A DNA stretch of 56,531 bases, taken from assembly GCA_009691405.1 (NCBI GenBank), contig SICN01000004.1, positions 1 through 56,531 of the forward strand, read 5' to 3'. The DNA is from Candidatus Peribacteria bacterium. Lineage in GTDB: Bacteria > Patescibacteriota > Gracilibacteria > Peribacterales > Peribacteraceae. The notes below the pieces were generated by a model. That model was not told the origin of the DNA. It saw nothing but the letters and a program-made list of their open reading frames with translations, and did not search any database. A program made the translations under genes and the position numbers. Shown here piece by piece: positions 2-5,386 of the stretch. How positions within the stretch are numbered: position 1 is the stretch's first letter; each line of letters opens with the position of its first letter.

Positions 2-1249
2 TTCACCTTCCGAATCACCGTGAAATCCACAAACCTCAATGGAGAAGTCGTCCAAGCTGCTACGACCCACACCGTCGTAGTGTTCAATACCAAAATCGTG
101 CTCATCGCGGACTCTTCCGTGCCGACGAAACTACTCGAGAGCTACAACGAGGCGGGGATGACGAAGGGAGTGTACGTAAAAATCATCCGGCCTCCGGAGT
201 CCACAGCGACACTCGGAGCGGAAGATGCAATCGTCGGGCTGCTCACCGAACAGAAAGTAGCACTGCTCAATGCATCATCCGTGATGATTTGGACGAACGG
301 CATCGCAGGTGTCCAGGCGCTGATGCGGAGCGCCCATGCGAATCCCGATCTGAAGGCGGTGATGCAAAACCAAACGATCGTGCTCATTACGGAACACAGT
401 CTCTCTACGCTCGCACGCTCCACGAGAGGAGCCTACTCATTCCTCAAACCGAAAGAGATCATCATCACTCGCCCCGAAGCGGTGAAGCCGATGATCGAAG
501 CAACCGATGCCGATGCCTTTAAAAGCATGCTCGAAGAACGAGGGATCGAAACGCTCGCCGTCAATGAAACCACGTTCAAAATTCGTCCGTGGGATATTTT
601 CTCGATCCTGGTCAACTATCTGCTGTCTCATGGAGTGGGCGGACAAACGGTCATCCTTCTCCTCATGCTTCCGGTGATTGCGACGATCTTTTCCTTTCTT
701 AGACAAATCATCGGCATCACGACATTCGGTCTCTACACCCCATCGATCGTCGCTCTCAGTTTTCTCGCACTCGGCTGGTGGATCGGGCTGCTGTTCCTGC
801 TCTTCATCCTCTTTACGGGGAATATGACACGCTCATTCATGAATCGCTGGAGACTTCTGTACATTCCGAAAGTCGCGATCATTCTGGTCGTCGTCAGCTT
901 CTCGCTTCTCGCTCTCGTCGCGCTTGGTACGTGGTTCGGTCTCACATTCTCCAGAGAAACCGTGTTCATTCTGCTGATGCTCTCAACGCAAGCCGAGAAC
1001 TTCTTAAATCTCAAATCCGAAGAAGGCTGGATGCCCGCCCTCCTCGGCGTGACCGAAACTGTCTGCGGGGCTCTCCTCTGCGTCCTTATCGTGCAGTGGC
1101 AGCTGCTGCAATCGCTCGTGCTCGCCTATCCCGAACTCATTCTCCTCACGATCCTCATCAATATTTTCCTCGGTCGCTGGACGGGTCTTCGCTTCATCGA
1201 GTACTTCCGCTTCCGGGAAGTGTTTAAGCACATGGCTGAAGAAGAATAA
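2..1249 (+). CDS. Inactive-transglutaminase / 7TM membrane protein, 5'-truncated by window edge
   Basis: The reading frame is open from the first bases of the window, so the N-terminus lies upstream; a GTG at 20 is the first start-like codon but is probably internal. The first ~190 visible residues are soluble and alpha/beta in character. The C-terminal ~210 residues hold about seven hydrophobic segments, beginning near LLLMLPVIATIFSFL and ending before a basic/acidic tail. This matches the family of seven-TM domains usually fused to an inactive transglutaminase-like domain, often encoded next to RimK-like ATP-grasp ligases. Here such a ligase gene starts 12 bases downstream, so the two are probably co-transcribed and act at the membrane together. 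Substrate unknown. Confidence 0.75.
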   Translation, partial: FTFRITVKSTNLNGEVVQAATTHTVVVFNTKIVLIADSSVPTKLLESYNEAGMTKGVYVKIIRPPESTATLGAEDAIVGLLTEQKVALLNASSVMIWTNGIAGVQALMRSAHANPDLKAVMQNQTIVLITEHSLSTLARSTRGAYSFLKPKEIIITRPEAVKPMIEATDADAFKSMLEERGIETLAVNETTFKIRPWDIFSILVNYLLSHGVGGQTVILLLMLPVIATIFSFLRQIIGITTFGLYTPSIVALSFLALGWWIGLLFLLFILFTGNMTRSFMNRWRLLYIPKVAIILVVVSFSLLALVALGTWFGLTFSRETVFILLMLSTQAENFLNLKSEEGWMPALLGVTETVCGALLCVLIVQWQLLQSLVLAYPELILLTILINIFLGRWTGLRFIEYFRFREVFKHMAEEE

Positions 1250-1261
1250 GAAACAACTTCT

Positions 1262-3688
1262 ATGTTCTTCCCTTTCCGCAATCACGGGGTGCTCGGGCTC
1301 AATGCCCGGAGCTTGCTCTACATCAAACCGTTCAATCCGAAGAAAGCGGTTGCATTCGCCGATGACAAGATGAAGACGAAAGCGTTTTTATCGGCTCGCG
1401 GCATTCCAACCGCGAAGCTCTTCGCGAGAATCGATACGAGAAGGCAGCTCAATAATTTTGATTTCAGCACGCTCCCGGATGAGTGCGTCCTCAAACCGAA
1501 CGAAGGATTCGGAGGAGAGGGGATCATCATCCTCAAAGGAAGAAAGAATGGCGAATTTCTGGAGCAGGGCAAGATTCCCATCACGAAGCGAAGGCTCACC
1601 GAACACATCGAAGACATTCTGGATGGTAAATTTTCAGTCACTGGAACCCAGGACTCCGCATTCTTCGAAAAGATCCTCGTGGCTGACGACAGCTTCTCTC
1701 CATTTCGTCCCGCAGGTCTCCCGGATCTCCGGATCATCGTCTTCAATCTCGTCCCGGTCATGGCGATGCTCCGAATTCCGACCGCGGAAAGCAGAGGCAA
1801 GGCAAATGTGCACCTTGGGGGTATCGGGGTCGGTATCGACATCGCAAAAGGCATCACAACCCATGCTGCACAGCACCGATCGATGGTCAGCGAGCTCACG
1901 CACGGCGGAAGCGTCTCCGGTATTCAAATTCCCCGCTGGGAAGAACTTCTCCTCATCGCATCCAAGATCCAGTACCTCACGAATATCGGTTACCTCGCCG
2001 TCGACCTCACGCTCGACAGAGACATGGGACCCGTGCTCCTCGAGGTGAATGCGAGAGCGGGTCTCATGGTGCAAGTGGCGAATCTCGCGCCACTTCGATC
2101 GAGACTGGAACGCGTGGAAGGACTTTCGGTCAATACTCCCGAGAAGGGCGTGCGACTTGCGCAGGAATTATTCGGGGCATCGGGACAAAAGCCGGAGGAG
2201 AAGAAGCAGACTGAACAGAGAATCCTCGCTCTTCGGGAAACGATCGAACTGAACGGGGAAGGCGTGCAGATTGAAGAACCGTGTTCGATTACTCCAGAAG
2301 TGCCCAGTACGATATTCACGAGAGAATTTCTGCTGGAACTGGCGTCGGTGAAAGCCGCGCAGCCAATTGCAGGAAGCAGCAACACCTACAAAGTGAAGTT
2401 CGCGCTCGGCGGTCGAAGACTCCAGACCGTTGCTACCGTTGGTATCCCGGAAGACGCGACGCTGCGTGTGTCGATCGGGAGCAGGGATCTCAGAGGCTTC
2501 CTTATCGATCCGAGCAGAAAAGCAAAAAGCCCCGTGCAAATCGGCGTTCGCAAGGACCTCCGTGCCGTCGATCGCATCCTCTGCGGAATCGACAGGGAAC
2601 TCTCGACGCTGAAATACTTGCGACCGCTCAACCTAACGGAAGAACGTGCAAAGCTTCGACGCGATCTGTCGTACGAGCCGATCTTCCTTCTGAGAGAATG
2701 CAAGCTCGACCTCGGGGATCTGGAACGAACCTTACTGCCGATGGAAGGCGACGAAAGCACGATCGGCATCTTGCTTCGAAAGAAGAGACGCGAACTGCTG
2801 CTGAAGATCGAACTAGTGAGATCAAGAGGCAATGCTGAAAAATTCGTTTCCGCATCACTGTCTCTGTTCGGTGCTCCAAGTCCCGCACTCATCGGATTTG
2901 CAAAAGAGTATCTCCGTGATGAATTGCGGCAGCTACCGGAGGAAGAAAAAATACACTCAAAAACCGCAGAAGAAGCGAGACCTGTCTTCGAGGAACATCT
3001 GGAGCGCTACGGACTGCATGACTGGATCGTGGAAGTGAAACGCGGGATGGTTGCCGACTGTGCAGTGGGGGAACACAGAGTATTCCTGAGAAGTGGAGCG
3101 CTGTTCACGGACGATCACCTCCGGGCACTGCTTGCTCACGAGATCGAAACCCATGTGCTCACTGCAGAAAACGGTCGCATGCAGCCCTACGAAATTTTCA
3201 GACGTGGATGTGCGAACTATCTGGATACGCAGGAAGGACTCGCAATCTACAGTCAGAACCGTGTGCTCCCTCTGCAGCACGAGAAACGTTTCCTCCACGC
3301 AAAAGGAGTCCTCGCAGTCGCCTTCGCCATGGATCACTCCTTCGCGGAAACGCGGTCGTACCTCGAGAACGATCTCGGCTACACGTATGAGAAGGCAATT
3401 TCGAAGACGATCGACCTGAAGCGCGGTTTCAGTCGAACGCAGGATACGGGAGCATTTACGAAGTCACTCGTGTACTTCCGAGGATTCAGGGCTATCGATC
3501 AGTTTGTCTCGCAGGGAGGAGACCTTCGAAAGCTCTTTGTAGGCAAGATCGCAATCGAGGATCTGCCCCTCATCGAAAAAATCGAAGGTATGCGACCTCC
3601 TGGCATGCTGCCGGTTTTCCTTCGAGCACCTGTCCTAGCCAGTCCCAAACCCAAGCGAACAAGAAAATCAGCTCAGAAAGGAACTTAA
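1262..3688 (+). CDS. ATP-grasp ligase fused to DUF1704 (MATCAP-like) metallopeptidase
   Basis: An 808-residue protein with three parts. Residues ~1-305 are an ATP-grasp domain of the alpha-L-glutamate-ligase-related type (Lys-rich N-terminus, LKPNEGFGGEGI phosphate-binding loop, LLEVNARAGL metal-binding segment). Residues ~345-420 resemble the C-terminal half of the RimB/ATP-dependent zinc protease (retropepsin-like) fold, with IGSRDLRGFLIDPSRK, but no catalytic DTGA is visible. Residues ~430-800 are a DUF1704 tyrosine/phenylalanine carboxypeptidase domain with HEIETH (H626, E627, H631) and TQEGLAIY (E658), the expected zinc-site motifs. The family includes eukaryotic MATCAP detyrosinases. 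One polypeptide thus carries both an amide-forming and a peptide-cleaving module. It follows the 7TM gene by 12 bases. The target is not known. Confidence 0.8.
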   Translation: MFFPFRNHGVLGLNARSLLYIKPFNPKKAVAFADDKMKTKAFLSARGIPTAKLFARIDTRRQLNNFDFSTLPDECVLKPNEGFGGEGIIILKGRKNGEFLEQGKIPITKRRLTEHIEDILDGKFSVTGTQDSAFFEKILVADDSFSPFRPAGLPDLRIIVFNLVPVMAMLRIPTAESRGKANVHLGGIGVGIDIAKGITTHAAQHRSMVSELTHGGSVSGIQIPRWEELLLIASKIQYLTNIGYLAVDLTLDRDMGPVLLEVNARAGLMVQVANLAPLRSRLERVEGLSVNTPEKGVRLAQELFGASGQKPEEKKQTEQRILALRETIELNGEGVQIEEPCSITPEVPSTIFTREFLLELASVKAAQPIAGSSNTYKVKFALGGRRLQTVATVGIPEDATLRVSIGSRDLRGFLIDPSRKAKSPVQIGVRKDLRAVDRILCGIDRELSTLKYLRPLNLTEERAKLRRDLSYEPIFLLRECKLDLGDLERTLLPMEGDESTIGILLRKKRRELLLKIELVRSRGNAEKFVSASLSLFGAPSPALIGFAKEYLRDELRQLPEEEKIHSKTAEEARPVFEEHLERYGLHDWIVEVKRGMVADCAVGEHRVFLRSGALFTDDHLRALLAHEIETHVLTAENGRMQPYEIFRRGCANYLDTQEGLAIYSQNRVLPLQHEKRFLHAKGVLAVAFAMDHSFAETRSYLENDLGYTYEKAISKTIDLKRGFSRTQDTGAFTKSLVYFRGFRAIDQFVSQGGDLRKLFVGKIAIEDLPLIEKIEGMRPPGMLPVFLRAPVLASPKPKRTRKSAQKGT

Positions 3689-3769: not shown

Positions 3770-3835
3770 TACCATCCTTTTTGTTTCATCCTCCCATCTC
3801 CTGTGTCTACGCATTCGTGTACTGCACCCAAGAAA

Positions 3836-5386
3836 ATGGCTCGGAAAGCGGCTTCTGCGCTTCTTGCCTTCTCGCTGCTTGGAACAGGATTTATGGGAGT
3901 TTTCTCACTTCTGTCAAATACAACACTCGCCATCCACTCGCAGTGTTCCGATGGGCTCGACAATGACCACAATGGGAAAACCGACTATCCACAAGACGAT
4001 GCGTGCAGTTCACTCGACGAGGGTTACGAAGGTATTTCCACCAGCGGAAACTTCATCACGATCACCGATGGCAAAGAAACGATTACGATGGGAGGCTCGG
4101 TTGTCTACGTGATCACTCTCAAACAGCAACGCGAGACCAGCCGCAATGTGAACGTCACCTTGCATCTGCCACACCAATCCAATATGACGTCCGCAAGCGA
4201 CGCCGGAAGCGTGCGCCAGGATACGGTAACGTGGACGAATATCTCGATCTACAAAGACGCCACCCGCACGATCACCGTGAACGTGAACGTCACACCGGAA
4301 GCAAAGCCAGGACAGTATCTCGTCGCCAGAGCTTTGGTCGAAGGCGCAGAGGCGACGGACACAACGCTCGTCGCGGAGTCTGTACAACCGAATGGAACCA
4401 CCTACGATCTCTCTGTCTCGGACGGCAAAAATTTCATCTGGCCCGGCGAACAGTCGACGTACACCGTCCGCGTGAAGAACATCAGTTCCACGCGAAAAAC
4501 AACCGACGTGCATCTCGCGTTGCCGTTCGATACGTACTTCATCTCCGCATCCGACAATGCCGCTCGCGACTCTTACAACGTTACGTGGAAGAACGTCACA
4601 CTCGAACCGAATCAGAGCAGGGCATTCACGACAACGGTGCAGATCGATCATCGTACGAAGGACAAAATGCTAATCCGCGCCAGAGCGTACAGAGGATACT
4701 GGGACGGTTCGAATGTCCGCTGGCTTGTGCTCCAAATCGCCCCGAAAGACACCCGCACCCTCACCTACAGCGTGCGTGTGCGCGCCGATGCGCCTCTCAG
4801 ATCCGTACTGACGGCGAGTGCTACGGCAGACGGTTCTCTCTCGAGAGACAGAACAACCGTCGTGTTGCAGAGCACCGAGAACGGACTCATCCCAAATGAA
4901 ATTCTCTTCCGCAAGACTTCCGACAGGAGAGAAGCTGTACCGGGCGGCAGAATCCGCTACACGCTCTTTATCAAGAACACGCTCGACCATGTGATCTCGG
5001 ACGCCAGCATCGTCGACCGATTTGAGAACCGTTACCTCTCACTGGATACGTATGAAAATCCATCAAGTCTCATCAGTCGTACCGACTCTCAGATGATCTG
5101 GGCAGTACCGGTACTGAAGCCGGGTGAATCATGGAAGACGAGCTACGTGCTCAAAGTCGGCGAGAACGCACCGAGCGGCATGGATCTCGACAACGTCGCG
5201 ACTCTTCGCGGAGCGGATGTCGGAGGACTGTCGCTCACCGAAAGAGTCCGTACGAATCAAGCAGGTGTGCTCGGCGAGTTCCCGGAAACGGGAGCCGGCA
5301 TGGACACGATCCTCGCAGGCATTCTCGCCCTCACCGCGCTCGGTGCAACGGCGATTCAGAAGAAACTCACTCTCGGCAAAATGTAA
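3836..5386 (+). CDS. Secreted surface protein with DUF11-like repeats and LPXTG-like C-terminal sorting signal
   Basis: From ATG 3836 the product is 516 residues and begins with MARK and a hydrophobic signal peptide, plausible cleavage after NTTLA. A GTG at 3803 is in frame but adds residues unlike a signal peptide. The mature N-terminus has the acidic CSDGLDNDHNGKTDYP motif, an EF-hand-like Asp-rich stretch seen in many CPR surface proteins. The body contains beta-rich repeats of the conserved-repeat/DUF11 type (segments with TVRVKNISS, TYSVRVRAD, YTLFIKNTLDH). The C-terminus has FPETG at about residue 482, a hydrophobic helix and a basic tail, the layout of a sortase substrate, with F in place of L. 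No sortase gene lies in the window. It has its own strong promoter and ends at a bidirectional terminator. Confidence 0.8.
   Translation: MARKAASALLAFSLLGTGFMGVFSLLSNTTLAIHSQCSDGLDNDHNGKTDYPQDDACSSLDEGYEGISTSGNFITITDGKETITMGGSVVYVITLKQQRETSRNVNVTLHLPHQSNMTSASDAGSVRQDTVTWTNISIYKDATRTITVNVNVTPEAKPGQYLVARALVEGAEATDTTLVAESVQPNGTTYDLSVSDGKNFIWPGEQSTYTVRVKNISSTRKTTDVHLALPFDTYFISASDNAARDSYNVTWKNVTLEPNQSRAFTTTVQIDHRTKDKMLIRARAYRGYWDGSNVRWLVLQIAPKDTRTLTYSVRVRADAPLRSVLTASATADGSLSRDRTTVVLQSTENGLIPNEILFRKTSDRREAVPGGRIRYTLFIKNTLDHVISDASIVDRFENRYLSLDTYENPSSLISRTDSQMIWAVPVLKPGESWKTSYVLKVGENAPSGMDLDNVATLRGADVGGLSLTERVRTNQAGVLGEFPETGAGMDTILAGILALTALGATAIQKKLTLGKM

Follow-up and report, generated by a model that had tools for sequence, protein, structure and literature searches.

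Rlo retropepsins cut polyglutamate, and in Pseudomonas the proteins RloB and RloC share the process of the retropepsin RloA; this RloB/RloC system has effects on osmotic tolerance, on biofilm and on the survival of antibiotics (PMC12239564). In the glutamylation of ribosomal protein S6, the ATP-grasp enzyme RimK is the glutamate writer and the protease RimB the eraser at a C-terminal glutamate tail (PMC12239564; PMC11957791). MATCAP/TMCP enzymes take off the C-terminal Tyr of tubulin and then the next Glu, and they also shorten its polyglutamate chains (PMC10499314). Here, we describe a gene of a Candidatus Peribacteria bacterium that encodes an ATP-grasp domain, a retropepsin-fold domain and a MATCAP domain in one chain, next to the gene of an RloB-like membrane protein. 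It lies in a stretch of 56,531 nucleotides (contig SICN01000004.1, assembly GCA_009691405.1), referred to as the window.

The fused system is a variant of the RloB–RloC, or Rlo/Rim, writer–eraser kind. As in RloABC of Pseudomonas (PMC12239564), an RloB-type seven-transmembrane (7TM) protein stands beside a RimK-like ATP-grasp protein (RloC) and an RloA-type retropepsin fold is present. Whereas Pseudomonas RloA is a separate, secreted and catalytically intact protein, the retropepsin is fused here to the cytosolic RloC and has lost its motif, a MATCAP domain has been added, and RloB presents a PKD domain rather than a detected transglutaminase domain, together with a Glu-Glu end. The classic order rloA-rloB-rloC was found in Legionella. 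The likeness to RimK/RimB lies in an ATP-grasp glutamate writer combined with a protease eraser at a C-terminal glutamate tail, but here the predicted eraser, a metallopeptidase, has a different fold and the genome of the window gave no match to the RimK model PF08443 at E 0.001. S6 was discarded as a substrate, since its open reading frame in this genome ends in ...DSDLKL, with no Glu end. No PF05618 protease was found in the genome, and within the class 1 of 145 genomes encodes one. Nothing pointed to phage or defence, no search of PHROGs or PADLOC having been made.

The MATCAP domain shares its fold and zinc site with the tubulin carboxypeptidases (PMC10499314), although it is bacterial, fused to a ligase and found where there is no tubulin. 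It is also homologous to the bacterial QEGLA proteins (TIGR02421), which have other neighbors and lack the RloC fusion. One of them stands beside an ATP-grasp gene on pSymB of Sinorhizobium meliloti, where an N-formylglutamate-amidohydrolase-like gene (named by eye), a QEGLA gene and an ATP-grasp gene lie in a row (L203:4394-8195).

Our preferred reading, to which we assign a probability of about 0.45, is that the locus is an RloB–RloC type system in which a writer and a replacement eraser, joined in one chain, run a glutamate cycle on the C-terminal tail of RloB.

Domains of the Fused Protein

The initial annotation had placed a peptide ligase and a DUF1704/MATCAP peptidase in the same chain, and Pfam agreed: ATPgrasp_ST (PF14397) matched residues 16-286 (E 3.7e-58, 197 bits against a cut-off of 31.4) and MATCAP (PF08014) matched residues 468-774 (E 1.8e-49, 169 bits against a cut-off of 27). 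The motifs cited there were located (residues 77-88, 259-268 and 626-631), as was E658. Modelling of the full 808-residue chain with AlphaFold2 (mean predicted local distance difference test score, pLDDT, 84.5; predicted template modelling score, 0.51) recovered both the ATP-grasp fold and the zinc-peptidase fold; in the model the domains are well formed and their mutual arrangement is uncertain. Since the fused frame is kept in 57 other full-length homologues and in the best matches among GTDB species, no frameshift joins two separate genes. A chimera was ruled out as well, as one fused open reading frame recurs in tens of metagenome-assembled genomes (MAGs) of different origin. The fused architecture is real, conserved and catalytically plausible. 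The author of the initial annotation knew of no description of the fused form, and our literature search found none either, although a 2009 survey of amidoligases (PMC3268129) was outside the search, so a prior mention is possible.

The ATP-grasp domain scored 249.5 bits with TIGR02291 (rimK_rel_E_lig), a near full-length homology under the equivalog cut-off of 314.2. In an alignment of 58 full-length fused proteins, its residues K78, D248, E261 and N263 are conserved at 98%. The N-terminal part of the model resembled ArgX (Z 15.4) and RimK (Z 15.2), as well as D-Ala ligases. The tubulin tyrosine ligase (TTL) model PF03133 did not match the protein of the window and matched 6 of 37 homologues weakly, with a best E of 0.0086. 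The domain is thus closest to RimK/RloC alpha-L-glutamate ligase-like proteins and not to TTL, which speaks against the analogy with tubulin tyrosination drawn initially, and it probably adds glutamates.

For the MATCAP domain, the Pfam match, the fold and the invariant residues agreed with the DUF1704 peptidase first proposed. The C-terminal part of the model aligned with human MATCAP (7z5g) over 285 residues with Z 26.9, and the zinc site H626, E627, H631 and E658 is invariant in the same alignment of 58 proteins. The NCBIfam QEGLA model (TIGR02421) gave 200 bits, under its cut-off of 338.65. Both enzyme domains look catalytically intact, and the MATCAP domain probably removes glutamates. 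Some genomes of the Peribacteria class also contain second, unfused MATCAP/QEGLA proteins of 342-368 amino acids, distant from RloC (L066-L070).

The segment between the two enzyme domains had been described as half a retropepsin without DTGA. The motif is indeed missing, with TPEV in its place and the catalytic Asp lost, but the half-domain reading was discarded because a complete RloA-type fold was predicted and matched. Folded alone, this middle part reached a pLDDT of 90, and its top Foldseek match was RloA (9g58, E 5.8e-5); in a second structural alignment, RloA-type structures led with Z 10.3-10.6. Its sequence profile matches relatives with intact DTGA, and a scan of 37 homologues with PF05618 gave no direct match at E 0.1, so that the homology to retropepsins rests on profile and fold, not on Pfam. 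A few fused proteins read DTSR/DTSK or DTTK at the motif, with the Asp kept and the Gly gone.

RloB and Its Glu-Glu End

The RloB gene ends at 1249, 12 bases before the ATG of the fused gene. The initial annotation had seen there a 7TM/inactive transglutaminase partner; the 7TM region (PF14402) and the spacing of 12 bases stand, while a transglutaminase domain was not detected, and close relatives have a PKD domain in the extracytoplasmic part instead (for example, L031:5825-7375 and L201:2075-3619, in which no transglutaminase domain was detected either). The RloB model NF052267 matched weakly, with 48 bits against a cut-off of 900. An RloB homologue was found in most fused loci, with about 495-555 amino acids at full length in relatives, and RloB and RloC adjoin in most loci. 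Basic loops and a basic tail past the last membrane helix suggest that the C-terminus of RloB is cytosolic; a simple hydropathy count gave 6-7 helices in all RloBs, the number of seven being a manual reading.

Among fused loci, 53 of 55 have an RloB with Glu-Glu at its end; with the 5 of 5 loci that combine an adjacent MATCAP gene and a decayed motif, this makes 58 of 60 coupled loci, as against none of 30 loci with an intact retropepsin. As a background, 3 of 407 other genes on these contigs have this end. A GTDB scan set, overlapping the first one, gave 77 of 78. In a second sample taken from other genomes, 4 of 5 coupled loci had the Glu-Glu end (the exception is L269) as opposed to about 2 of 58 elsewhere (L216 and L286), the latter count being approximate since the label "decayed" covered DTGV, DTGI and DSGA loci that keep the Asp and were recounted by eye as Asp-retaining. 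RloB of Legionella and Aeromonas has no Glu-Glu end.

Distribution and Origin of the Fusion

The host group consists of tiny, mostly uncultured bacteria. A match to the fused protein was obtained in 80 of 96 related genomes, and the same domain order is kept in all 57 further full-length homologues aligned from the class (Peribacteria/Peregrinibacteria/Gracilibacteria), which answers the search for it proposed at the outset. Both Pfam models matched in each of 37 homologues scanned. The best 80 matches of the GTDB-species scan cover the chain in the same way, and almost every one is labelled Peribacteria, Peregrinibacteria, Gracilibacteria or Patescibacteria. Relatives that use TGA as a sense codon have the fusion too.

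In other Patescibacteria, what follows the same ATP-grasp is a retropepsin whose DTGA is intact, and MATCAP is not part of the chain; in one of them (L192), the retropepsin domain is above the PF05618 cut-off, and in some of these unfused loci MATCAP is a neighbor gene. In the ATP-grasp phylogeny, fused proteins from the class of the window form one group (Shimodaira–Hasegawa-like approximate likelihood ratio test, 99), while the fused L198 and L199, from another class, fall among unfused DTGA-intact proteins, and a single clade for all fused proteins was rejected by the approximately unbiased test (p 0.0014). In a third lineage (L166-L170), MATCAP is encoded by the following gene, and DTGA is replaced by NTGR or NTSR. 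There are thus two separate fusions and, in all, three lineages with MATCAP coupling and DTGA loss, the two coinciding in 3 of 3 independent contrasts; the gain of Glu-Glu on RloB, too, accompanies MATCAP in three separate lineages. The resolution of the MATCAP-domain tree was too poor to date the fusions.

Several loci showed other arrangements. Two ATP-grasp/retropepsin proteins have an extra C-terminal part (L192:1911-4676 and L193:3212-5779), which is a second ATP-grasp in L192 (biotin-carboxylase-like, ATP-grasp_3) and matches no Pfam model by itself in L193. In L196 and nearby f42 genomes (e.g., L228, L231 and L235), the retropepsins read DTGV, DTGI or DTGA, MATCAP is encoded on the opposite strand at a distance of about 4-8 kb, and RloB has no Glu-Glu. 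The fused gene is split in two frames near residues 430-520 in L051, L052 and L053, either by true fission or by assembly error. The Peregrinibacteria-like fused genes in two MAGs titled Kiritimatiellales and Nitrospirota (L087 and L151) are likely due to mislabelling or contamination.

Proposed Glutamate Cycle and Alternatives

Taken together, the decay of the retropepsin and the Glu-Glu terminus of RloB suggest that the eraser was exchanged and indicate a candidate substrate. In the proposed cycle, the ATP-grasp domain would add glutamates to a protein C-terminus in an ATP-dependent manner and the MATCAP domain, as a zinc carboxypeptidase, would take them off singly, with the cytosolic C-terminal tail of the adjoining RloB as the most likely target. 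The chain would derive from an older ATP-grasp/retropepsin fusion whose eraser was an aspartic endoprotease; when MATCAP joined, the retropepsin would have lost its catalytic motif and stayed as a structural or binding module. A carboxypeptidase requires a free C-terminus and an endoprotease does not. Therefore, the exchange of erasers, together with the Glu-Glu end, fits a glutamate cycle at the C-terminus of RloB. A role in envelope stress may be expected, as for the Pseudomonas rlo genes. We put forward more tentatively that this single polypeptide both writes and erases C-terminal glutamates on RloB and that the eraser swap, with a parallel gain of Glu-Glu, evolved about three times.

Several observations weigh against a cycle on RloB. 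Four MATCAP-coupled loci have RloB ends other than Glu-Glu, namely L045 (QDS), L107 (QE), L198 (NE) and L269 (ER), and the RloBs of L216 and L286 end in Glu-Glu although the retropepsin Asp is present and no MATCAP is coupled to RloC. DTGA is kept with MATCAP directly adjoining in L162, L163, L172 and L257, where both erasers may coexist as a plausible intermediate. With three independent origins only, a phylogeny-aware sign test cannot reach 0.05. In addition, MATCAP-like domains in proteobacteria adjoin other ATP-grasps, and Glu-Glu could be a docking motif instead of a substrate.

This last point leads to the alternative that the fused protein makes and trims a free product (poly-glutamate or another small peptide), which RloB would sense or transport, Glu-Glu being a docking mimic of the product. 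RimK yields free poly-alpha-glutamate besides tagging proteins, and free polyglutamate has been considered for RloA (PMC12239564); moreover, the ATP-grasp beside QEGLA in Sinorhizobium has no adjoining RloB. A docking motif, however, need not occupy the last two residues, and the strict position suits an enzyme acting on free C-termini; we regard a free peptide as doubtful. Another view, in which Glu-Glu is unrelated to the enzyme and either forms part of the ribosome-binding site of the following gene or is simply inherited, would agree with RloB and RloC often almost touching and with one ancestor for most fused loci. Yet Glu-Glu persists with RloB–RloC gaps from -4 to 435 bases, 40 of 51 of them outside 4-14 bases, and in L058 with RloB 2 kb downstream; its codons are mixed GAA/GAG, the commonest being GAAGAA, not a strong GGAGG site. 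On gap lengths and codons the ribosome-binding site was rejected, and the emergence of Glu-Glu with MATCAP in three separate lineages speaks against inheritance, leaving an unrelated origin improbable.

The initial annotation had proposed a writer–eraser cycle on a C-terminal residue; its pairing of a ligase with a carboxypeptidase-type domain in one chain, beside a 7TM partner, holds, in contrast to its tyrosine analogy. A tubulin-like cycle, with the ATP-grasp adding tyrosine or another residue and MATCAP removing it, could appeal to the removal of tubulin tyrosine by MATCAP, to the few weak TTL matches and to the resemblance of the -EE end of RloB to detyrosinated tubulin, but the ATP-grasp groups with RimK, RloC and ArgX and RloB tails, as encoded, have a final Glu instead of Tyr. 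Such a cycle is very unlikely, and the tyrosine reading as such is unlikely. Glutamate is a better guess than tyrosine, given that the ATP-grasp belongs with glutamate ligase-like proteins and that glutamates, too, are removed by MATCAP/TMCP enzymes.

For the RloB/RloC system, the Patescibacteria data give a concrete and testable candidate substrate in the C-terminal tail of RloB. If the glutamate cycle on RloB is true, bacteria would have a parallel to the tubulin code, in which an ATP-grasp and a MATCAP enzyme edit a C-terminus reversibly, and this would hint at a role for MATCAP-like enzymes beyond the cytoskeleton.

Features of the Locus

Table 1. Coordinates of the RloB-like gene, the fused gene and their elements in the window.
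Feature	Position	Strand	Basis
RloB-like membrane protein, 5' end cut by contig start; extracytoplasmic part, PF14402 7TM, basic cytosolic tail	2..1249	+	PF14402, E 6.1e-26
C-terminal Glu-Glu-Glu of RloB (GAA GAA GAA, then TAA), candidate site of glutamate addition/removal	1238..1246	+	
Fused ATP-grasp/decayed retropepsin/MATCAP protein	1262..3688	+	808 aa, ATG start, no internal stop
ATP-grasp domain, RloC/rimK_rel_E_lig type, residues 5-305	1274..2176	+	PF14397, TIGR02291, fold match
Retropepsin-fold domain, RloA/RimB-like, catalytically decayed, residues 318-420	2213..2521	+	Foldseek, structural alignment, profile
TPEV, residues 344-347, in place of the catalytic DTGA of unfused relatives	2291..2302	+	Alignments
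MATCAP/QEGLA metallopeptidase domain, residues 440-790	2579..3631	+	PF08014, human MATCAP fold match
HEIETH zinc motif, residues 626-631	3137..3154	+	H/E/H invariant in 58/58
E658, presumed third zinc ligand, QEGLA motif	3233..3235	+	Invariant

The next gene (3803-5386) encodes a surface protein with DUF11 repeats; its C-terminal FPETG, succeeded by a hydrophobic helix and then a basic tail, resembles a sortase signal.
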